DNA of 64,000 bases from Desulfurobacteriaceae bacterium (lineage in GTDB: Bacteria > Aquificota > Aquificia > Desulfurobacteriales > Desulfurobacteriaceae). Position numbers and translations under genes: made by a program. The DNA lies in assembly GCA_027063785.1 (NCBI GenBank), contig JAMORC010000039.1, positions 1 through 64,000 on the forward strand, read 5' to 3'. Below are positions 36,846 through 56,940 of the stretch, in pieces. The notes under the pieces were generated by a model. That model did no database searches, was not told the origin of the DNA, and saw only the letters and a list, made by a program, of their open reading frames with translations. How positions within the stretch are numbered: position 1 is the stretch's first letter; the number at the start of each line of letters is the position of its first letter.

Positions 36846-37284
36846 CAAAGTTTTTGTCGATGCCAATGTTATCTTAGACCTCTTTGTGCCGGATAGACCT
36901 TTCGCTGACCAATCTATTACTGCAATAGAACAACTACTTGATAGGAATGTTCAGCTTTTTACAAGCTGTGATTTGATAACCACCGTTTATTATTTCCTTG
37001 CTAAGTTGGATAGACAAAAGGCTTTTAAATCAATAGAAGCGGTTACCGAAATCTTTGATCTGGTTCCGTTTTCCAACATAGAGTTGATAGAGGCCTTGAG
37101 TCTTATGAGAAAAGATAGAAACTTTATAGATTTAGAGGATACTATTCAGTATGTTCTTGCCAGAAAAGCGGGATGTGACCTTATTATTACAAACGATAAA
37201 GCATTTTTCTCTCCGGACGTTGCGGTTTTAACATCGGAAAAACTACTAGAGGTTTTAAAAGGAGGAAAAGAATGGAAGCACTGA
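36835..37284 (+). CDS. PIN-domain toxin (VapC-like)
   Basis: A 149-residue PIN ribonuclease with its acidic residues present: FVDANVILDLF at the start, DLEDTIQYVLARKAGCDLII with TNDKAFF near the end. GTG 36835 overlaps the antitoxin. Its 3' end overlaps the next ATG by 13 bases, and the AAAGGAGG ribosome site of that gene lies inside its coding sequence. Toxin translation is therefore physically tied to the downstream chromosomal gene. Confidence 0.8.
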   Translation: MNFNKVFVDANVILDLFVPDRPFADQSITAIEQLLDRNVQLFTSCDLITTVYYFLAKLDRQKAFKSIEAVTEIFDLVPFSNIELIEALSLMRKDRNFIDLEDTIQYVLARKAGCDLIITNDKAFFSPDVAVLTSEKLLEVLKGGKEWKH

Positions 37285-37673
37285 AAGGCAAGCTCGTCTT
37301 TATCCAGACGGCAGGAGGCGAAGGAGTAGTTCCAACTTCCGGAATTATCGGCGTCGTTGAAGAGGTTACGCCCGACTACGTAAAGGTAAAAGACGCCGGT
37401 GTTTTTGCTCTACTTCCGACAACAAAAGGCGCTCAGGCGACTATTATGCCCCTTGATCCTACGGCCAACGAACCCGTCGAGGCCCTGATTATGAAAGGAC
37501 AGATTGTCTCTATAGTCCCGGTTACGGATAAGTCAAAGCTGAAGGAATTTCACCAGCAGTTTAAGGCAGCCGCCGCCGGGATAGAACTTCCATCCACCGG
37601 CGCAATTGACCTGTCCAAGATTAAGGAGTTTCCGAAGGGCGGTAAAGGAACGGGAGGTCTCTCAATAACTTGA
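37272..37673 (+). CDS. Conserved hypothetical protein upstream of the two-component genes
   Basis: A 133-residue soluble protein not recognised. The N-terminal 70 residues look like a small beta-barrel (KLVFIQTAGGEGVVPTSGII, EEVTPDYVKVKDAGVFALLP) and the C-terminus is Gly/Lys-rich. ATG 37272 has a strong AAAGGAGG. The stop overlaps the TTG start of the sensor kinase, so it is probably expressed with the kinase and regulator. Confidence 0.55.
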   Translation: MEALKGKLVFIQTAGGEGVVPTSGIIGVVEEVTPDYVKVKDAGVFALLPTTKGAQATIMPLDPTANEPVEALIMKGQIVSIVPVTDKSKLKEFHQQFKAAAAGIELPSTGAIDLSKIKEFPKGGKGTGGLSIT

Positions 37674-38674
37674 AAGCGGAAGACCTGCTCTTTTCCCACC
37701 CCTTCCCCGTTGTCGTTACCGACGGGGAGGGGAAGATAAAACTGGTAAACCAGAAGTTTGAAGCTCTGGTCAACAGGTCGCAGAAGTATCTGAAGGGGAA
37801 ATACCTGTTTTCCCTGCTTGAGGGCGGGGAAAAGCTGAAAAAACACCTGCTTGAAGCCTACAATAAGTCGATAGACGTTTTGGGAGTAAGGTTGGGGGAT
37901 CGCTACTTTTCCTTCTCCCCCCTTTACGTCTCGAATAACCTCAAAGGTGTTGTCGTAGTTGTCGAACCTGCAGGAGAACTTTCTTTCGGTGAAGACATAC
38001 TTCTCCTGCTTAAGGGACTTTCTCACGAAATCAGAAACCCCTTGGGAGGGATAAAGGGAGCTGCGAAGCTCTTTAAAGAACTCAGTTCTTACGATGAAGA
38101 ACTTGTTAACGTTATGATTGAAGAAATCGAAAGGATAGAGAGACTTCTAAACGACGTTGTAAGGAGCTTCGACTTCTCCTCCCTCTCTTTCAAAAAAGAA
38201 AACATCCACAGACTTATCCAGCAGGCAGTAGAGCTTTTCAGTTCAAGAATTTCGGAAATGGACATTGAGATTCTCTACCGGTTCGATCCCTCCCTCCCGG
38301 AAATCCCGGTTGATGCCGACAGGCTCCTTCAGGCGCTGATAAACCTCATTAAGAACGCCATCGAAGCAATGGAGGAATGCCCGAGGAGGATTCTGAAATT
38401 AGAAACCGGTTATGCCATTCACCCGTCCGGCTTTATATTTATCAAGGTCTCTGATACCGGGAAAGGCATGGACAGCGAGGAACTTAAGAATTTCTCCCTC
38501 CCTTTCTTCACAACAAAGGAAAAAGGACTGGGACTCGGATCCTTCATAGTGAGGGAAGTAGTAAAGGGACACGGCGGAGAACTTAAAGTCGAAAGCAGAA
38601 AAGGAGAAGGAACTTCCGTTACACTCCTGCTTCCTATGAAGAGGGAAGATGGCAAGGATTCTTGTGGCAGATGA
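37670..38674 (+). CDS. Sensor histidine kinase, NtrB-like
   Basis: A cytoplasmic 334-residue kinase without membrane segments. Order: a PAS domain (about 1-100), HisKA with the phospho-His (LSHEIRNPLGGIKGAAKL, near 120), then HATPase_c with the N box (NLIKNAIEAMEE), G1 (DTGKGM) and G2 (GLGLGSFIV). It would sense an unknown signal, perhaps nitrogen as in NtrB, and phosphorylate the NtrC-like regulator it overlaps by 26 bases. No glnB/glnA neighbour supports a nitrogen role here. Confidence 0.85.
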   Translation: MKAEDLLFSHPFPVVVTDGEGKIKLVNQKFEALVNRSQKYLKGKYLFSLLEGGEKLKKHLLEAYNKSIDVLGVRLGDRYFSFSPLYVSNNLKGVVVVVEPAGELSFGEDILLLLKGLSHEIRNPLGGIKGAAKLFKELSSYDEELVNVMIEEIERIERLLNDVVRSFDFSSLSFKKENIHRLIQQAVELFSSRISEMDIEILYRFDPSLPEIPVDADRLLQALINLIKNAIEAMEECPRRILKLETGYAIHPSGFIFIKVSDTGKGMDSEELKNFSLPFFTTKEKGLGLGSFIVREVVKGHGGELKVESRKGEGTSVTLLLPMKREDGKDSCGR

Positions 38675-40019
38675 CGAAAAGAGCATAAGGGTTGTCCTGA
38701 AGCGATACCTCGAATCAAGGGGACATGAGGTAGTCGAGGCTTCTGACGGCATTGAGGCCTTAAGAATCCTGAAGGAAGAAGAAATTGATGTAGCCTTCGT
38801 AGACATAAGAATGCCGGGGAAAAGCGGACTTGACGTCCTTAAAGAGATCAGAGACGTCCCGATAGTCATACTTACGGCCTACGGGACTATGGACTACACG
38901 GTCAAGGCAATGGAACTCGGAGCGGTTGAATACATAACCAAGCCTTTCTTATTTGAAGAGGTAAGCGCAATCCTTGAGAAGCTCCTTTCGGAGAGAAAAA
39001 AGGACGGAAGCGGGAATGAGGTCGAGGACGGACTTGAGATAGTAGGTTCGAGCCGAAAGATGCAGGAAGTATTTAAGGTAGTGGGAAGGGTTGCGAGAAG
39101 CTCTATAACTGTTCTAATCACGGGAGAAAGCGGAACAGGTAAGGAAGTCATTGCAAGAGCCATTCACAGGTATTCTAACCGGAAAAACGCACCGTTCGTT
39201 GCCGTTAACTGCGCAGCACTCCCTCCGAATCTCCTTGAAGCAGAACTTTTCGGCTATGAGAAAGGAGCTTTCACGGGAGCAATCTCAAGGAAAACCGGGC
39301 TCTTCGAACAGGCCAGCGGCGGCACGCTTTTCCTCGATGAAATCGGAGAACTTCCGCCGGAGCTTCAAGCAAAGCTCCTGAGAGTCCTCCAGGAAAAGGA
39401 AATCAGGAGAATAGGCGGAACACGCCCCGTTAAGGTCGACTTCAGGCTAATAGCGGCAACAAACAGGGACCTTGAAACAGAAGTCAAAAAGGGAAGGTTC
39501 AGGGAGGATCTTTACTTCAGGCTCAACGTTGTCAGGATCGAACTTCCTCCCCTCAGGGAAAGAAAGGAAGACATTATCCCCCTTGCTCACCACTTTATAA
39601 GAAAGTTCTCAAAGGAGTTTAAGCTCCCGCCAAAAGAACTGACCAATAGGGCCGTTGAATTCCTGCTCCACTACCACTTCCCGGGAAACGTCAGGGAGCT
39701 TGAAAACATGATACTCCGCGCTATGATCCTATCCAGGGTTAATTTTATCGACGCAGAAGACCTAAAGCCGGACTGCAAACAGACGGCACCCTCCTTTGAG
39801 GAAGCCATAAAAAACTTCGTTGTTGAAATATTCTCCGTAGAACAGAAGGAGAAGAACAACCTTTACGATCTGATAATTAAAAGTGCGGAAAAGATCCTCA
39901 TATCGGAAGTCCTCAAGTTTTGCAACTTCAATCAAGTTAAGGCTGCCAGAGTCCTAGGAATCCACAGGAACACACTGAGAAAAAAAATAAAAGAACTGGG
40001 GATAGAGCTAAACTGTTGA
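38649..40019 (+). CDS. Sigma-54-dependent response regulator, NtrC-like
   Basis: A 456-residue regulator: receiver domain (RILVADDEKSIR, phospho-acceptor Asp in FVDIRMPGKSG), AAA+ domain with Walker A (GESGTGKEV), the sigma-54 contact loop GAFTGA, Walker B (FLDEIGELP), and a C-terminal Fis-type HTH (NFNQVKAARVLGIHRNTLRK). All activator residues are present. It activates promoters read by RNA polymerase with sigma-54. Its targets are not evident in this window. Confidence 0.9.
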   Translation: MARILVADDEKSIRVVLKRYLESRGHEVVEASDGIEALRILKEEEIDVAFVDIRMPGKSGLDVLKEIRDVPIVILTAYGTMDYTVKAMELGAVEYITKPFLFEEVSAILEKLLSERKKDGSGNEVEDGLEIVGSSRKMQEVFKVVGRVARSSITVLITGESGTGKEVIARAIHRYSNRKNAPFVAVNCAALPPNLLEAELFGYEKGAFTGAISRKTGLFEQASGGTLFLDEIGELPPELQAKLLRVLQEKEIRRIGGTRPVKVDFRLIAATNRDLETEVKKGRFREDLYFRLNVVRIELPPLRERKEDIIPLAHHFIRKFSKEFKLPPKELTNRAVEFLLHYHFPGNVRELENMILRAMILSRVNFIDAEDLKPDCKQTAPSFEEAIKNFVVEIFSVEQKEKNNLYDLIIKSAEKILISEVLKFCNFNQVKAARVLGIHRNTLRKKIKELGIELNC

Positions 40020-40099: not shown

Positions 40100-40711
40100 A
40101 TGAAACCTAACTTAAGGAAGGTTAAACGACAAGTAATCCTTCACCAGGACGGAACACCTTACGTTCCCCAGTATCCCGGTGGCATAAATACCCTGAAATG
40201 CACAGGATGCGGCGAGTGTGCTGAGATCTGTCCTCAAGGGTGTATAGAAATCCAAGAAGTTGACGGTCGGAATGTTGCCGTCCTCACAAAGCTTGAACTC
40301 TGTATAGGCGACGGATTCTGCAAAATAGTTTGTCCCGAAGACGCTTTCCTCTGAGGTATTAACTGTTCCTCCGGTCCGGAGGAAATCGAAGTAAACGAAG
40401 ACGAACTCCTCTCCGACAATGAGGGAAACTACGCATACCTAACGCTGGGAGGATTCCTCTACACCCCCAGTTACCTTGAAAAAATTGATCATAACAAGTG
40501 CAAAAACTGCGAAAGGTGTCTGGAGCTTTGCGAAACGAGGGGAATAGACAAAGATGGAAAAGTAATCCCGGAATTTCCCGAAATATGCAACGGTTGCGGT
40601 CACTGCGTAAACATCTGTCCTGCAAAGAGCATTAACGCAAAGCCGATACCTCTGGAAGAGATGAAAAGAAGGGTTAGAAAAAAAAAGAAAACCTCTAACT
40701 ACAACTTTTAA
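40100..40711 (+). CDS. Candidate selenoprotein: four-cluster ferredoxin with in-frame TGA (Sec85)
   Basis: ATG 40100 begins a ferredoxin that meets TGA at 40352 and continues in the same frame to TAA 40709-40711, giving 203 residues. Both sides are clearly coding: C34/C37/C40/C44 form a full cluster motif; C68-x2-D71-x2-C74-x3-C78 is a CxxDxxC-type cluster; after the TGA, C134/C137/C140/C144 and C163/C166/C169/C173 form two more. The two halves look like an internal duplication of a ferredoxin-III-like module (YVPQYPGG versus YTPSYLEK). The hairpin after the TGA fits a bacterial SECIS. The alternative is a nonsense mutation making an 84-residue ferredoxin. The 3' end overlaps the convergent gene by 17 bases. 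Confidence 0.7.
40352..40384 (+). promoter_or_regulatory. Putative bacterial SECIS element (UGA plus hairpin)
   Basis: TGA 40352-40354 is followed by the inverted repeat TTCCTCCG/CGGAGGAA (40366-40373 with 40377-40384; 8 bp). The apex reads GGTC at 40373-40376. Eighteen bases separate UGA from GGUC, the same number as in E. coli fdhF as I recall it, where GGUC is in the SelB-binding loop. No downstream SelB gene is in the window, so function is inferred. Confidence 0.65.
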
Positions 40712-42715: not shown

Positions 42716-42850
42716 CCCCCGACTAAAGTCGGGGGCTTCCCGCTTCATCGTGGGATAAACCCCACTCCACGGGCGTTACTTTCCCGCAGTCCACGGGTAG
42801 GGTTTTTAGGAGTTTTCCTTCTCCTTTAAGCTTCTCTATCGCTATCCTCA
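42716..42850 (-). ncRNA. Putative omega RNA at the tnpB 3' end
   Basis: In characterised TnpB elements the guide RNA scaffold overlaps the tnpB 3' end and runs to the right end. Here the GC-rich hairpin 42716-42735 and the preceding structured 3' coding region fit that position, with the guide starting near 42700. The 5' limit given is arbitrary. Confidence 0.4.
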
Positions 42851-43988
42851 GTATGTTCCTCGCTGAATTAACGTCTCTGTCTATCTCTTTACCGCAACTC
42901 TGACACTTAAAGGTTCTCTCTGATAGAAAAACTTTCTGTCTATGCCCACAAAAGGAGCAAGTTTGGGTAGTAGGTTCGTATCTATCTACAAAGACCACAG
43001 GAATAAGGGTCGCAAGGGTTCTCAGCCTTGCAGTTATTCCCCCTATTCCCGTGTTTTGTATCTGTTTACCGAAATATCCCTCTTTCCAGCTCTTGATGTT
43101 GTCGTTCTGAACTACTATGAGAGAGAATCTTTTGAGGTAGCTTACTGCTTTATTGAGGGTGTCTTTTCGCTTGTTGTTGATGTATTCCCACTCTCTCCTA
43201 ATTAGCTGTTTTATCTTCCAGTAGTTCTTACTCCCCTTCTGTTTTCTGGAAAGGGATTTTTGCAGTCTCTTTAGTCTTTTAGTCTCAGGTATATACCAGC
43301 TGAATTTCTCTCCGCTTGACAGAGTTAGCTGGTGCTTTATCCCTAAGTCTATACCTATCGGTTCTTTTAATCGCCTTTCTCTAATTTCCTTTAAAACTTC
43401 TTCTTTTGGAAGGTAGCAGACTACGTGCAGGTAGTATCCGGAGGGTTTCTTAATAAGCTGTGCTTCTGCAAGTTCTGCGTTTTTCGGTATTTGGTGGAGA
43501 CCTAAGACTCTAAATCTCTTCTTTATCCCCTGTATCTTTACTTTATTCTTGTCTCCTAAAATCTTGTAGGTTATTCCGTATTGTTTTAACGGTATGCTTC
43601 TAACTTCGCTCTTAAATGAGAGCTTCCCTACCTTGATTCCTTTTTCCTTTGCTCTTTTGAGGGAGAGAAGATTTCCCTTTATCCTTTCTACTATTCCTTG
43701 CCTCATCTGGGAGGAGAGTTGTTTTATTTCTCTCCTTTTAAACCCCTCTGGTGTTTTGATTTCTACTTCTTTGAGTTTCCAAGTATCTCTGTTCAACCTG
43801 TTTTCTACATCTGCAATTATGTAGTTGTATAGCCACTTTGCCTCAAGGAATAATCTGCCTAATACTTCTCTGTCTTTTTCTGATAGATTCTGGAGCTTGA
43901 GCTGATAGACTCGGGGAACCTGAATTTTTCTTTTTTCCCTCGTCTGCTTTAAGGTGTTTCTTATCTTTTCAGCTTTAACCCGTCCCAT
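42723..43988 (-). CDS. tnpB: TnpB with RuvC-II Glu replaced by Gln
   Basis: A 421-residue TnpB with N-terminal helix-turn-helix/WED-like region and RuvC core. RuvC-I Asp is D214 (GIDLGIKHQ), the zinc finger uses C344/C347/C362/C365, and RuvC-III Asp is D372 (IDRDVNSARNI). The RuvC-II motif reads IVVQNDNIKSW: Q294 (codon CAG) stands where nuclease-active TnpB has Glu in IxxEDLN. TnpB is an RNA-guided DNA nuclease; loss of this Glu would be expected to stop cleavage but not guide-directed binding. Some TnpB lineages relocate this Glu, so inactivity is not certain. The rest of the protein looks intact. Confidence 0.85.
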   Translation of the reverse strand: MGRVKAEKIRNTLKQTREKRKIQVPRVYQLKLQNLSEKDREVLGRLFLEAKWLYNYIIADVENRLNRDTWKLKEVEIKTPEGFKRREIKQLSSQMRQGIVERIKGNLLSLKRAKEKGIKVGKLSFKSEVRSIPLKQYGITYKILGDKNKVKIQGIKKRFRVLGLHQIPKNAELAEAQLIKKPSGYYLHVVCYLPKEEVLKEIRERRLKEPIGIDLGIKHQLTLSSGEKFSWYIPETKRLKRLQKSLSRKQKGSKNYWKIKQLIRREWEYINNKRKDTLNKAVSYLKRFSLIVVQNDNIKSWKEGYFGKQIQNTGIGGITARLRTLATLIPVVFVDRYEPTTQTCSFCGHRQKVFLSERTFKCQSCGKEIDRDVNSARNILRIAIEKLKGEGKLLKTLPVDCGKVTPVEWGLSHDEAGSPRL

Positions 43989-45464: not shown

Positions 45465-45559
45465 GGAGGGGTGGCCGAGTCTGGCTGAAGGCGGGTGACT
45501 TGAAATCACCTGAGGGCCTAACCAGCCCTCCGGGGGTTCAAATCCCTCCCCCTCCGCCA
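45465..45559 (+). tRNA. tRNA-Ser(TGA)
   Basis: Acceptor stem GGAGGGG pairs with CCCCTCC, discriminator G, encoded CCA. It has a long variable arm as in class II tRNAs, and the anticodon loop CTTGAAA gives TGA. Confidence 0.95.
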
Positions 45560-45564
45560 TAAGT

Positions 45565-45640
<76 letters not shown>

Positions 45641-45647
45641 CTTTTAA

Positions 45648-45743
<96 letters not shown>

Positions 45744-45850
45744 CTCCGTTCAAATCTTCCTCAGCACCTTTCCTTCCGCTCCCACCGGCAAAGTGCACTT
45801 TCATATAATTGCTTTTGAGCTTTCAAGAAATTCCGCATAAGGAGTGGAAA

Positions 45851-52808: not shown

Positions 52809-53453
52809 ATGGAAGACCTGAGGAAAATCCCTCTACTTTCGGAACTTTCGGAAGATCAACTAAAAAAAGTTCTCTCGATAGCAACGCTTAAGAAATACCC
52901 CAAGGGCAAAGTAATATTCACCCCCTCTCAAAAGGGAGAGTTTTTTTTCATTCTGAAGAAGGGTAAAGTAAAAGTATTCAAAACGGCAAAAGGCAAAGAG
53001 CAAATACTCAAAGTCTTCTCAAAGCCTGCCATTTTTGGAGAAGCCGCAAGCTTTACCGGGAGTTATTTCCCGGCCTGGGCAGAAAGCTTGGAAGAATCCG
53101 AAGTTTTGGTAATTCCCAGAAAAGAGTTTCTCAACCTGCTGAGGGAAGATCCGGAAATAGGAATGAAGCTTCTCGCCGTTATGGCTCAAAGGCTTATGCA
53201 CCTTACCGGCGTAATAGAGAACCTTTCTCTAAAAGATGCTCTCTCAAAGGTATCCTCCTACATACTGACGCTATACGGCGAAATGGGAGAGGAAATAACT
53301 TTCCGGACAAACATTGCAGCTATGGAACTCGGCCTCACAAAGGAAACAGTTTCCCGCATGCTGTCAAAGCTTAAAGAGATGGGAATAATAGAGAAGAATA
53401 GGAACTCCATAAAAATTAAAGACCTCAAAGCCCTCAAGGAACTTTCAATCTAA
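52809..53453 (+). CDS. Crp/Fnr-family transcriptional regulator
   Basis: A 214-residue protein: cyclic-nucleotide-type sensory domain (1-120), dimer helix, and C-terminal winged HTH. The recognition helix KETVSRMLSKL has the E-x2-S-R pattern that in FNR-type proteins reads TTGA half sites. No FNR-type N-terminal cysteine cluster is present and no CooA-like heme Cys/His pair was seen, so the signal is unknown. A matching TTGAC-N4-GTCAA box lies 2.4 kb away at cooS. It ends overlapping the convergent gene by nine bases. Confidence 0.85.
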   Translation: MEDLRKIPLLSELSEDQLKKVLSIATLKKYPKGKVIFTPSQKGEFFFILKKGKVKVFKTAKGKEQILKVFSKPAIFGEAASFTGSYFPAWAESLEESEVLVIPRKEFLNLLREDPEIGMKLLAVMAQRLMHLTGVIENLSLKDALSKVSSYILTLYGEMGEEITFRTNIAAMELGLTKETVSRMLSKLKEMGIIEKNRNSIKIKDLKALKELSI

Positions 53454-53756
53454 GAACTTTTCCCTAAGTTCGTGAACCAGCCAGCTCAAAGGGCTATAAA
53501 GAAAAAGTCTCGGCCCGCTGAAGCGCATCACCTCTTTAATCCTACTTCTCATCTCAGGAGTGTAGCAGTGAACAGGACACCTCTTACAGGTAGGCTTATC
53601 CTCGCCGAAAGGACAAACTTCAAGCCTTTCGTAAGCATACCTCAGAAGTTTTCGGCACTCGGGACAGAGTTCCCCCTTTTGCACGCCGTGCTTTTTCCAG
53701 CAGTAAATTTCAAGCATTTTCCTTATTGTTCTTTTTTCCCTTTCCAGCCTGCTCAA
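53445..53756 (-). CDS. Nitrous-oxide-stimulated promoter family protein
   Basis: A 103-residue cysteine-rich protein (ELCPECRKLLRYAYERLEVCPF, then KPTCKRCPVHCYTPEMR) matching the nitrous oxide-stimulated promoter family (PF11756). The Cys pattern suggests metal binding. Function is not established. It converges on the Crp/Fnr gene and precedes the cooS terminator-like hairpin. Confidence 0.75.
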   Translation of the reverse strand: MSRLEREKRTIRKMLEIYCWKKHGVQKGELCPECRKLLRYAYERLEVCPFGEDKPTCKRCPVHCYTPEMRSRIKEVMRFSGPRLFLYSPLSWLVHELREKFLD

Positions 53757-53777
53757 AAGACCTCCCCGAAATTAAGA

Positions 53778-53798
53778 AGTCCCCGCCGGGCGGGGACT
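53778..53798 (-). terminator. GC-rich hairpin after cooS
   Basis: A near-perfect inverted repeat (arms AGTCCCCGCC and GGCGGGGACT) lies 22 bases past the cooS stop. No T-tract follows on the minus strand, so it may be a weak terminator or an mRNA-end stabiliser. Confidence 0.5.
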
Positions 53799-53819
53799 AA
53801 GGAAGAGAGGAGTCAAGGA

Positions 53820-55784
53820 TTATATACCAAGAAGCTCTCTCTTCTTCACTATGTGTTCTTCAATACCGTCCGCAGCCTGAACGGGATCATCCCCGACGGC
53901 AATCTTTCCGCCGGTCAGGCCTTCAACCTCTTCGGTAAGTAACTTAACGACTTTATCAGAACCGGTTACCGGAGGAACGGGAGAAACGTGGGTGTAAAGT
54001 CCCATGGCAACGGCAGAAAAACCGTCAATAACGGCCTTCTGTTCCATATACTCTGGTGCAGTAACGGCCACAGGAAGCTGGGAGGGATCAACACCCAGAG
54101 CATTGGCAATCGCCACGACGGTCATGATAATTCTTCCCGTATCGGTGCAGGTTCCGAAGGAAAGGACAGGAGGAATTCCGAGAGCCTTACAAACCCCGGC
54201 AAGCTTCGGACCCGCGTACTTATCGACAGCCTCAAGAGTCTCAAGTCCGGCTTTCTGAAGACCCGCATTTCCGCAACCGGCACCGATTACAAGGATATCT
54301 CTCTTTATAAGCTCCTTCGCTATTTGAACTGTCATGCTGTCCTGGGGACCGTTCCCGAGGGAAGTACAGTTAACGAGAGCAACAACTCCCTTAATATCTC
54401 CGGATTTAATTACTTCAAGAAGCGGGTCAAGGCTTCCGCCGAGGGCGTTAACTATCGCCTCTGCGGAAAATCCGACAATAGCCTTCTGCTTAAACCTGGA
54501 AACGTCAGCCTTCGGAGCGCTCTTTCTCTCCTTAAAGTTTTCGATTGCAAGCTTTATTATCTCCTCGGCTACCTTTGACTCATTCCCCGGCTTGTACTCA
54601 AGCCTTATTGAACCGGGAACACCTATGATGTTTGAAACGGCTATAAGCTTAAACCTGTACTTATCTGCGTACTCCTTAAGGTTGGCAAGGGAACAGTTCA
54701 TATCCATAACAAAGGCATCGACTGCTCCGGTTGAGAGGAAGTACTCTATCGATATCCAGTTTGAAGTAAGACCGGCAAATACGTCGTCGCACTCAAGTCT
54801 TGCCATCATCTCCTGACCGGTTTCAATAGAACCAACGATTTTCACCCCTTTAGCACCGGCAGCCCTTGCCATCTCCTGAACTTTCGGGTCTTTAGCCAGC
54901 TTAACAAGGGCCATACCGACAAAAGGTTCGTGTCCGTTGGGCAGGATGTTAACGTAGTCGGGATCGAGAATACCGAAGTCAACCTCGCACTCGTGAGGAG
55001 TAGGCGTTCCGTAAAGGGCATCTTGAATAATCTCAAGGGGAACTAAAGCTCCGAAAGCAGAAGCAACGCCGTTTCTGAGAGCTGCCAGCGCCAGGGTAAT
55101 GTAGTCCCCATCGATGTTGGTCATTGAGCGAGTTACGGAATCGACAAGCTCATTCATAGGTCCTTTGGGCATTATGCCGAGCCTTCTGAAAACCTCCTTC
55201 CTGCTTTCAGGAGCCAGTTTCTCAACAAAGATTGACGTATCGTTTTGAGACAAGCTGCTGAGAACCCCCTCCGCTACCTGTTTGGCTTTCTCCTCCAGGG
55301 GAAGGGATTTATCTACACCGAGAACATCCGCCAGCAGGTCAATCTTCGAGGGATCTTTAATCTCATAAACCGTATTTCCCTTTGCCGTTTCAAGGAGCGT
55401 TAAGGCTGCTTCCCTGCAGTGGTAGGTATAAGCGGAAAGCCCCATATTGGCCTTTATGAGGAAATTCCTCATAACAATACCGTGAGCGTCGATACCGCAA
55501 ACTCCCCTGGGGGTTTTCGGAGTTATACGACAAGGGCCCATTGAACAAAGCTGACAGGAAACTCCCTCTTTACAGAACTTACACCTGACCTGTTCCATTG
55601 CCCCAAATCGATCAGCAACGTTTGAAAGCCCGGCTTCCTTTACCTGTTTGTACATGTAGTTAACGCTTTCGTGGAAACTGGGCATTTTAAGGCCGACGCC
55701 TGCCGAAAGATCCGACTCCGCGCGGAAATTCTGCTGTTCTTTCTTTTCGCTTCCGTTCCCGTCCTTTTTGAAGAATCCAAACAT
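53820..55784 (-). CDS. cooS: Anaerobic Ni-Fe carbon monoxide dehydrogenase catalytic subunit
   Basis: A 654-residue CooS. Near the N-terminus are the Cys clusters for the B and D [4Fe-4S] sites (CKFCKEGVSCQLCSMGPC, then GVCGIDA). C-cluster ligands appear as the HCREAAL region, the CSLA motif (MDMNCSLANLKEYADKY), VNCTSLGNGPQDS, GAGCGNAGLQKAGLE and FGTCTDTGRI. It interconverts CO and CO2. ATG 55784 follows GGAGGAG; the open frame upstream is non-coding. It has no cooF, cooC, hydrogenase or acetyl-CoA synthase next to it, so its electron partner is elsewhere; the ferredoxin at 40100 is a possible partner only by type. Confidence 0.93.
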   Translation of the reverse strand: MFGFFKKDGNGSEKKEQQNFRAESDLSAGVGLKMPSFHESVNYMYKQVKEAGLSNVADRFGAMEQVRCKFCKEGVSCQLCSMGPCRITPKTPRGVCGIDAHGIVMRNFLIKANMGLSAYTYHCREAALTLLETAKGNTVYEIKDPSKIDLLADVLGVDKSLPLEEKAKQVAEGVLSSLSQNDTSIFVEKLAPESRKEVFRRLGIMPKGPMNELVDSVTRSMTNIDGDYITLALAALRNGVASAFGALVPLEIIQDALYGTPTPHECEVDFGILDPDYVNILPNGHEPFVGMALVKLAKDPKVQEMARAAGAKGVKIVGSIETGQEMMARLECDDVFAGLTSNWISIEYFLSTGAVDAFVMDMNCSLANLKEYADKYRFKLIAVSNIIGVPGSIRLEYKPGNESKVAEEIIKLAIENFKERKSAPKADVSRFKQKAIVGFSAEAIVNALGGSLDPLLEVIKSGDIKGVVALVNCTSLGNGPQDSMTVQIAKELIKRDILVIGAGCGNAGLQKAGLETLEAVDKYAGPKLAGVCKALGIPPVLSFGTCTDTGRIIMTVVAIANALGVDPSQLPVAVTAPEYMEQKAVIDGFSAVAMGLYTHVSPVPPVTGSDKVVKLLTEEVEGLTGGKIAVGDDPVQAADGIEEHIVKKRELLGI

Positions 55785-55844
55785 TTTCTCCTCCTGCATC
55801 TTGGTTTCTGATATGAATCCTAACCGGTTTCTTCGGAGAAGGCC

Positions 55845-55858
55845 TTGACCTAAGTCAA
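55845..55858. promoter_or_regulatory. Crp/Fnr-type operator between cooS and the nifX-like gene
   Basis: TTGACCTAAGTCAA is a perfect TTGAC-N4-GTCAA palindrome. For the plus-strand gene, TACAAT (55880-55885) places the site centre about 40 bases upstream of the expected start. For cooS, a minus-strand TAGGAT (55822-55817) places it about 41 bases upstream. Both spacings are class II activator-like. The regulator encoded at 52809 is a candidate. Confidence 0.65.
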
Positions 55859-55921
55859 AAACAGGACAATATTTGAATGTACAATTTATTGGAGAATTAG
55901 AATTAAATACGGAGGTAAATG

Positions 55922-56296
55922 ATGAAGATCGTCGTTCCGGTGCTTGAAACGGAAGTAAAGGGAAAGAAGCTCGTAAACGCCCACTTCGGCAAATCAAAGC
56001 ACTTTGCCGTTGTAGATACGGAAACGGGAAACGTTGAGGTAATTGAAAATCCGGGAATTCACCTTCCAAGGAGAAGGGGAATCTACATCGCGGAGATGTT
56101 TAAAGAGAAAGGAGTTCAGGCCGTTCTGGTAAAAGAAATGGGAGCAGGCGCTTTTGATAAGATAAGGAATGTTATGGGAATCAAAGTTTACCTTATTCCC
56201 CCGGAAATTAAATTCCTGGATGAAGCAGTTGAGGCCTTTAAGGAAATGAAACTCAAAGAGCTTCCAGCCCCAAACGAAGAACCCCACGAGCATTAA
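55922..56296 (+). CDS. NifX/NifB-type iron-molybdenum cofactor-binding domain protein
   Basis: A 124-residue single-domain protein of the dinitrogenase Fe-Mo cofactor biosynthesis family (IVVPVLETEVKGKKLVNAHF, GKSKHFAVVDTETG, VQAVLVKEMGAGAFDKIRNV). Members carry metal clusters. Outside nitrogen fixers they are common orphan proteins. ATG 55922 follows GGAGG; ATG 55919 is adjacent. The C-terminus has a His-rich end (EEPHEH). It is divergent from cooS, so a role in Ni-Fe cluster handling is possible but unproven. Confidence 0.8.
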   Translation: MKIVVPVLETEVKGKKLVNAHFGKSKHFAVVDTETGNVEVIENPGIHLPRRRGIYIAEMFKEKGVQAVLVKEMGAGAFDKIRNVMGIKVYLIPPEIKFLDEAVEAFKEMKLKELPAPNEEPHEH

Positions 56297-56307
56297 GGGA
56301 GGGAACT

Positions 56308-56940
56308 GTGAAGTGCCACCTCTGCAGTTCTCCGGACTGCTACAGAAAGGAAAAGCGCTGCTACGGAGCGGAAAAGGAAATTGACTCCCTTACGGAATTT
56401 GAGCTGAAACTCCTGAAAGTCGCCTCCGACATAGAAAGGGAGTTCTACTGCAGGGCTACAAGAGTTCAGGAGCTTATAGAGTTCTGCAGGAGAATGAAGT
56501 TCAAGAAAATCGGAATTGCGTTCTGCATAGGACTTTTCGAAGAAGCAAGGATTCTGGCGGAGATTTTAGAATCCCACGGACTCAAAGTCTTCTCGGCCGC
56601 CTGTAAGGTCGGAGCGGTTGATAAGGAAGAACTCGGAATTGAGAAAATGAAACCCGAAAGCCCCGAATCCGTCTGCAACCCGATAGGTCAGGCAGAACTT
56701 CTCAACAGGGCGGGAACTGAACTCAACATAATAGTCGGCCTCTGCATAGGACACGATATCCTCTTTCAAATGCACTCGGAAGCTCCGGTAACGACTCTCA
56801 TAGTGAAGGACAGAGTCTTGGCCCACAACCCGGCAGGAGCAATCTACTCTAAATACCACAGGAACGCCTTAAAAAAGGCCCCCGAAGGGGGCAGCCTGAG
56901 CTGTGAGGAGGGAGAGATGGAGCATCTGGGAGGGAAATAA
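56308..56940 (+). CDS. DUF1847 metal-binding protein
   Basis: A 210-residue Cys-rich protein of the DUF1847 family. N-terminal Cys motif (CHLCSSPDCYRKEKRC), then FKKIGIAFCIGLFEEARILA, a GLKVFSAACKVGAVDKEELG stretch and SVCNPIGQAELLN, GLCIGHDILF. Function is unknown; the conserved Cys suggest iron-sulfur or other metal binding. GTG 56308 is the start. It follows the nifX-like gene after eleven bases. Confidence 0.72.
   Translation: MKCHLCSSPDCYRKEKRCYGAEKEIDSLTEFELKLLKVASDIEREFYCRATRVQELIEFCRRMKFKKIGIAFCIGLFEEARILAEILESHGLKVFSAACKVGAVDKEELGIEKMKPESPESVCNPIGQAELLNRAGTELNIIVGLCIGHDILFQMHSEAPVTTLIVKDRVLAHNPAGAIYSKYHRNALKKAPEGGSLSCEEGEMEHLGGK

Follow-up and report, generated by a model that had tools for sequence, protein, structure and literature searches.

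An open reading frame for a ferredoxin that is interrupted by a single TGA raises two questions: whether the triplet ends the gene or is read as selenocysteine (Sec), and, if the latter, what the resulting protein may be for. Such a frame is present in the window analyzed here, a stretch of 64,000 nucleotides from a Desulfurobacteriaceae bacterium, in a gene we refer to as selenoferredoxin, whose frame is open on either side of its only TGA, codon 85 of 203. The features that bear on both questions are collected in Table 1.

Table 1. Position of selenoferredoxin, its predicted elements, and the loci discussed with it
Feature	Position	Strand	Remarks
Selenoferredoxin CDS	40100..40711	+	203 residues with predicted Sec85, stop TAA at 40709-40711; orthologs in 18 genomes
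UGA codon, predicted to be read as selenocysteine 85	40352..40354	+	Invariant in 18/18 orthologs; purifying selection on both sides
Putative bacterial SECIS hairpin, 8-bp stem, GUC loop	40366..40384	+	Conservation, compensatory pairs; GGUC apex as in SelD
Ferredoxin unit 1	40133..40351	+	Residues 12-84; C34/C37/C40/C44, C68/D71/C74/C78, extra invariant C48; homologous to unit 2
Ferredoxin unit 2	40436..40642	+	Residues 113-181; two CxxCxxCxxxC motifs
NtrB-type histidine kinase with PAS domain	37670..38674	+	Conserved context
NtrC-type sigma-54 response regulator	38649..40019	+	Conserved upstream neighbor; ends in a true TGA stop
Crp/Fnr-type palindrome TTGACGCAGGTCAA	40016..40029	+	70 bp before the ATG
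Crp/Fnr-family regulator	52809..53453	+	PF00027 and PF13545; candidate to bind the palindrome; adjacent to cooS in the relatives read
YgbA_NO family protein	53445..53756	-	PF11756, 128 bits; downstream of cooS
Anaerobic Ni-CODH catalytic subunit (CooS)	53820..55784	-	TIGR01702, 789 bits (cut-off 478); proposed regulon partner
Same palindrome TTGACCTAAGTCAA	55845..55858	.	Divergent promoter of cooS and the NifX-like gene
NifX-like (Nitro_FeMo-Co) protein	55919..56296	+	PF02579; divergent from cooS

An In-Frame UGA Conserved in the Desulfurobacteriaceae

A sequence-only reading of this DNA had held that the TGA at 40352 interrupts a frame that is coding on both sides, and both substitution patterns and orthologs agree with it. 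Median dN/dS is approximately 0.07 upstream and approximately 0.09 downstream of the UGA (unsaturated pairs; rough values, with synonymous sites near saturation), and the alternative frames of the gene are full of stops. A search of 61 relatives, followed by one of 136 Aquificota genomes, yielded 18 genomes with the gene, all belonging to one family, the Desulfurobacteriaceae, and to six genera of heat-loving anaerobes, Thermovibrio and Desulfurobacterium among them. The encoded proteins share 55-97% pairwise identity. When the residue aligned to position 85 was checked, as had been proposed, TGA was found in 18/18 orthologs, with no other residue in any of them, and never an unrelated residue or the end of a gene. 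A seventh genus, g7 (four genomes), keeps tRNA-Sec, SelB, and CooS, while selenoferredoxin is absent.

The plainest alternative is an ordinary stop codon, a decayed gene or a sequencing error. TGA is indeed a normal stop in this genome, as in the gene just upstream, but the sharing of the TGA by 18 independent genomes, the purifying selection downstream, the conservation of the SECIS, and the full Sec machinery leave this explanation with virtually no weight: stop codon and pseudogene are rejected by the 18-fold conservation along with dN/dS, and an error at 40352, which would have refuted the selenocysteine assignment, is ruled out by 18 independent assemblies. The use of TGA as a true stop just upstream also excludes a reassigned code.

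A Cys homolog at the Sec position is a common support for a bacterial selenoprotein, even if not a defining criterion, and this support is missing. No Cys form of selenoferredoxin was found in the 136 Aquificota genomes, in a scan of GTDB contigs, in plasmids or in viral contigs, and thus the classical Cys/Sec pair is lacking. Viral contigs contained no selenoferredoxin homologs, and the plasmid search gave one match, at 27% identity. A match in Bdellovibrio (L077) was rejected as a homolog, its frame being antisense to a long unrelated ORF. As to variation among the carriers, two orthologs (L025 and L026) extend approximately 25 codons beyond the usual C-terminus and end at a TGA stop, and one MAG (G013) has, on contig C129 (L063:3702, L063:3813), a second copy of the gene in which a further TGA takes the place of the codon for Cys48, a residue that is invariant elsewhere. 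A clear hairpin is lacking after this further TGA, which is perhaps an assembly error or the mark of a decaying copy.

The SECIS Hairpin and the Selenocysteine Machinery

The UGA is followed by the hairpin TTCCTCCG-GTC-CGGAGGAA, and the earlier description of this element, 8 bp with a GGTC apex 18 nt after the TGA, is confirmed as it stood. Across orthologs, the apex lies 16-19 nt downstream of the UGA; in three genomes the hairpin has moved 3 nt closer to the UGA and has been rebuilt in register with the same apex, and the single exception to the (G/A)GU apex is found in G013, with AGGA. Published bSECIS limits call for a loop of 3-9 nt, a stem of 4-16 bp, a G in loop positions 1-2, a distance of 16-37 nt from the UGA, and an MFE of at most -7.5 kcal/mol. 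The hairpin of this gene is within them (loop GUC, 8 bp, 19 nt, about -10 kcal/mol), and in the recommended check by RNA folding, regional MFE values ranged from -8.6 to -15.6 in all 18 orthologs.

By itself, the hairpin is weak evidence for a SECIS. Its MFE is ordinary for its composition (z = -0.11 versus dinucleotide shuffles, not significant), SECIS-like hairpins of 8 bp accompany approximately 0.6% of all TGAs in the window, and in the single gene whose sliding energy comparison included the UGA, another spot was stronger than the hairpin. Measured against synonymous-codon shuffles, its folding energy has a mean z of -2.4. What carries the hairpin beyond chance is the presence of TGA in 18/18 orthologs, the compensatory pairs, and the frozen synonymous codons. 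Paired cells make up 88.9% in the hairpin versus 39-65% when the partner is slid one to three columns; the closing pair of the stem is A-U in eight genomes and G-C in six, and a C-G to G-C swap occurs in one. Codons frozen within the hairpin are those of Ser90 (TCC, 18/18), Ser91 (TCC, 15/16), and Glu94 (GAG, 16/16), and mean normalized codon entropy is 0.28 in the hairpin columns versus 0.83 in 113 others, none being as low. The possibility of two genes, or of re-initiation at the Shine-Dalgarno-like GGAGGA in the 3' arm of the hairpin, was rejected, as no conserved in-frame start follows the UGA in the orthologs compared.

A genome lacking selB or selC would have spoken against selenocysteine. 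A search for selA, selB, selC, and selD recovered all four, with 83.4 bits for tRNA-Sec, 430.6 for SelB, 638.6 for SelA, and 372 for SelD. The SelD of the same genome (L088, G000:C21:16404-17324) has an in-frame TGA of its own, at the known Sec site (SGUGAK), and AAGCCC-GGUC-GGGCUU lies 17 nt on, with the same GGUC apex as in selenoferredoxin, although the enzyme is unrelated and its Sec belongs to an SGUxxK site. Going by sequence, this predicted UGA and hairpin pair is an internal positive control for the hairpin of selenoferredoxin.

With strong coding constraint on both flanks, TGA in 18/18 orthologs, a conserved SECIS, and the Sec machinery in place, residue 85 is almost certainly selenocysteine, as the sequence-only reading had inferred; this remains an inference, the presence of selenium in the protein not having been shown physically. 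The SelA/SelB/SelC/SelD system would insert Sec at UGA codon 85, directed by the hairpin just downstream.

Architecture of the Protein and the Position of Sec85

The two halves of the protein are homologous (hhalign 96.6%, 66 columns, 33% identity), and the protein is thus a duplicated 2[4Fe-4S] ferredoxin unit. The cluster motifs recognized earlier can all be located: the two CxxCxxCxxxC motifs 3' of the TGA correspond to C134-C144 and C163-C173, and the CxxDxxC motif before it to C68-D71-C74, joined by C78. The U-x3-C motif (U85 and C89) is likewise present, both residues being invariant and situated at the junction between the two ferredoxin units, and near the site C68, D71, C74, C78, and S90 are invariant as well. 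The only structure model (AF2) has a mean pLDDT of 62, is reliable in part of unit 1, and is poor outside this unit; in it, residue 85 ends the last strand of unit 1. Given the weakness of the model, Sec85 cannot be placed relative to the clusters. Foldseek retrieved canonical ferredoxin domains, such as those of the HdrA type, over approximately 57 residues only, and an HdrA2-like similarity of residues 86-194 was dismissed as a ferredoxin cross-match (52 bits versus 1100). The Sec85-Cys89 pair would form a redox-active selenenylsulfide between both ferredoxin units, being less likely a cluster ligand. Whether the two form a redox pair, as opposed to ligating a cluster, we consider an even call; the chemistry is inferred, and a role beside the CxxDxxC cluster has not been shown.

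The location of the UGA, just past the last unit 1 ligand (C78) and ahead of the linker to unit 2, also invites the proposal that it additionally acts as a selenium-controlled switch, with unit 1 alone (84 residues), a complete 2[4Fe-4S] ferredoxin, being made without selenium and the double ferredoxin with it. UGA recoding competes with termination (PMC4513850), and this counts for such a switch. On the other side, no observation points to stability or use of the 84-residue product, and Cys89, past the UGA, shows the same invariance as the UGA itself, arguing that Sec itself matters. We see the switch as an improbable addition to the assignment of Sec85.

Genomic Context and an Operator Shared with cooS

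Wherever the contig is long enough, the order of an NtrB-type kinase, an NtrC-type regulator, and then selenoferredoxin is kept, and in all but one genome a convergent unknown gene faces selenoferredoxin, with hemE beyond. In most relatives, the kinase is itself preceded by a 133-aa protein without a Pfam match (37272-37673 in the window). Elsewhere in the window, 42723-43988 looks by eye like an IS200/IS605-type TnpB (zinc-ribbon CSFCGH...CQSCG), and at 45465-45804 there are tRNA-like matches with weak scores for tRNA-Sec, which overlap a minus-strand ORF of 88 aa; this ORF is probably spurious.

Of the 17 ortholog promoters, 10 contain an exact copy of the palindrome upstream of selenoferredoxin, TTGAY-N4-RTCAA (0.017 expected); two others deviate from it by one mismatch, and in five it is weak or missing. 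The first half coincides in part with the stop codon of the regulator gene in some genomes, which leaves the second half unexplained. Across the genome, the palindrome is rare and shows no enrichment (8 sites versus 7 for the reversed control), and in the five genomes in which its sites were followed, it recurs between genes at just one further place, the divergent promoter of cooS and the NifX-like gene. There it is exact in 17/17 selenoferredoxin carriers examined and in 2/4 genomes of genus g7, mostly approximately 60 bp before the CooS start. A common Crp/Fnr regulon with cooS would require the two promoters to have an operator in common in different species, as is the case here, and joint regulation of selenoferredoxin and cooS appears likely, even if it is inferred from this operator, with no binding data. 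The Crp/Fnr regulator encoded beside cooS would control the two together. The cooS locus (52809-56940), which is conserved and encodes the Crp/Fnr regulator, YgbA_NO, CooS, and, divergently, NifX-like and DUF1847 proteins, is a candidate CODH regulon in its own right.

Possible Roles of Selenoferredoxin

The reading that we favor, with some reservation, is that selenoferredoxin belongs to the CODH regulon and acts there, in a Sec-dependent manner, as a carrier of electrons or as a redox partner, a role that is inferred. The CooS of the window is 91% identical to the copy in relative G008, which we take to be Thermovibrio ammonificans. In T. ammonificans, the CODH has been described as a type V enzyme whose function is unknown (PMC5441870), and CODHs can have ferredoxin-like partners, CooF being one of them (PMC6344411). 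By analogy, selenoferredoxin would carry electrons to or from CooS, but this step is tentative and we would rather not count on it: it rests on the shared operator only, the genes are 13 kb apart and in separate operons, and the constant neighbor of selenoferredoxin is the NtrBC-like pair, not CODH. Furthermore, genus g7, with CooS and without selenoferredoxin, shows that the latter is not a general requirement of CooS. The most specific version, of a Sec-dependent carrier dedicated to type V CODH, whose UGA would also set the ratio of single to double ferredoxin by selenium supply, seems unlikely.

The same observations can be read differently, with selenoferredoxin being a selenoprotein but not a CODH carrier, Sec85 and Cys89 forming a catalytic or metal-binding site fed by the clusters, and the regulator being merely common with cooS. 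The chemistry could then be thiol/selenol redox, or a response to nitrosative or metal stress, under a shared redox or NO regulator. The invariant U-x3-C adjoining the clusters, the YgbA_NO family protein within the cooS cluster, and the occurrence of CooS alone in genus g7 fit this explanation, as do the FNR-like boxes, which are typical of anaerobic and NO regulators. The protein, however, has no similarity to known redox-enzyme selenoproteins, and all of its recognizable sequence is ferredoxin. We retain this explanation as less likely than the Sec-dependent role in the CODH regulon given above.

Implications

With no Cys version found, selenoferredoxin represents a selenoprotein family that would escape any method dependent on Cys/Sec pairs, and automatic annotation is likely to end the gene at codon 84 or to split it in two, hiding the second ferredoxin unit. 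The finding would give a deep-branching autotrophic lineage a ferredoxin that contains Sec. It also suggests a possible partner and a possible regulator, in cultivable organisms, for a CO dehydrogenase described as being of unknown function (PMC5441870).

Comparison with Known Systems

The sequence-only reading knew of no selenoprotein among ferredoxins of this type, and this claim has held up in the review table, the listed NCBIfam models, and the literature, supplementary tables and subscription papers being outside the scope. A 2026 catalog of 119 prokaryotic selenoprotein families and subfamilies (PMC13188914, Table 1) has no matching entry, the nearest being HgcB, NF005503, and GlpC-like; no NCBIfam cut-off is met among the 25 of 55 matches listed; and the main text of the deep-Sep paper names no ferredoxin. 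Within the scope searched, selenoferredoxin is a previously uncatalogued selenoprotein family.

CooF and the other ferredoxin-like partners of Ni-CODH resemble selenoferredoxin in the proposed role and in being multi-cluster ferredoxin-type proteins, and CooF is of comparable size, about 200 residues. Selenoferredoxin differs in being located outside the cooS locus; it was not found in the cooS flanks read. No CooF model is among the 25 of 55 NCBIfam matches listed for it, and a literature search found no report of Sec in CooF. The nif-specific ferredoxin III (TIGR02936) is the best family match of unit 1, but selenoferredoxin has CxxDxxC in cluster II, a tandem duplication, and Sec, and identity with this family was rejected (63.6 bits versus a cut-off of 80.55; NtrBC-hemE context, and no nifH, which is absent in the 16 family members searched). 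HgcB, the mercury-methylation ferredoxin, is likewise a 2[4Fe-4S] ferredoxin with Sec forms catalogued (motif GVGU; PMC13188914), but it has a single ferredoxin unit and another Sec motif, and its model (NF040864) was rejected at 39.4 bits versus a cut-off of 99. Finally, the Fe-S cluster domain selenoprotein NF005503 (UxxC) and the GlpC-like Fe-S oxidoreductase (UGH) share with selenoferredoxin the presence of Sec in an Fe-S protein, and differ from it in architecture and in the Sec motif, which in selenoferredoxin is U-x3-C.
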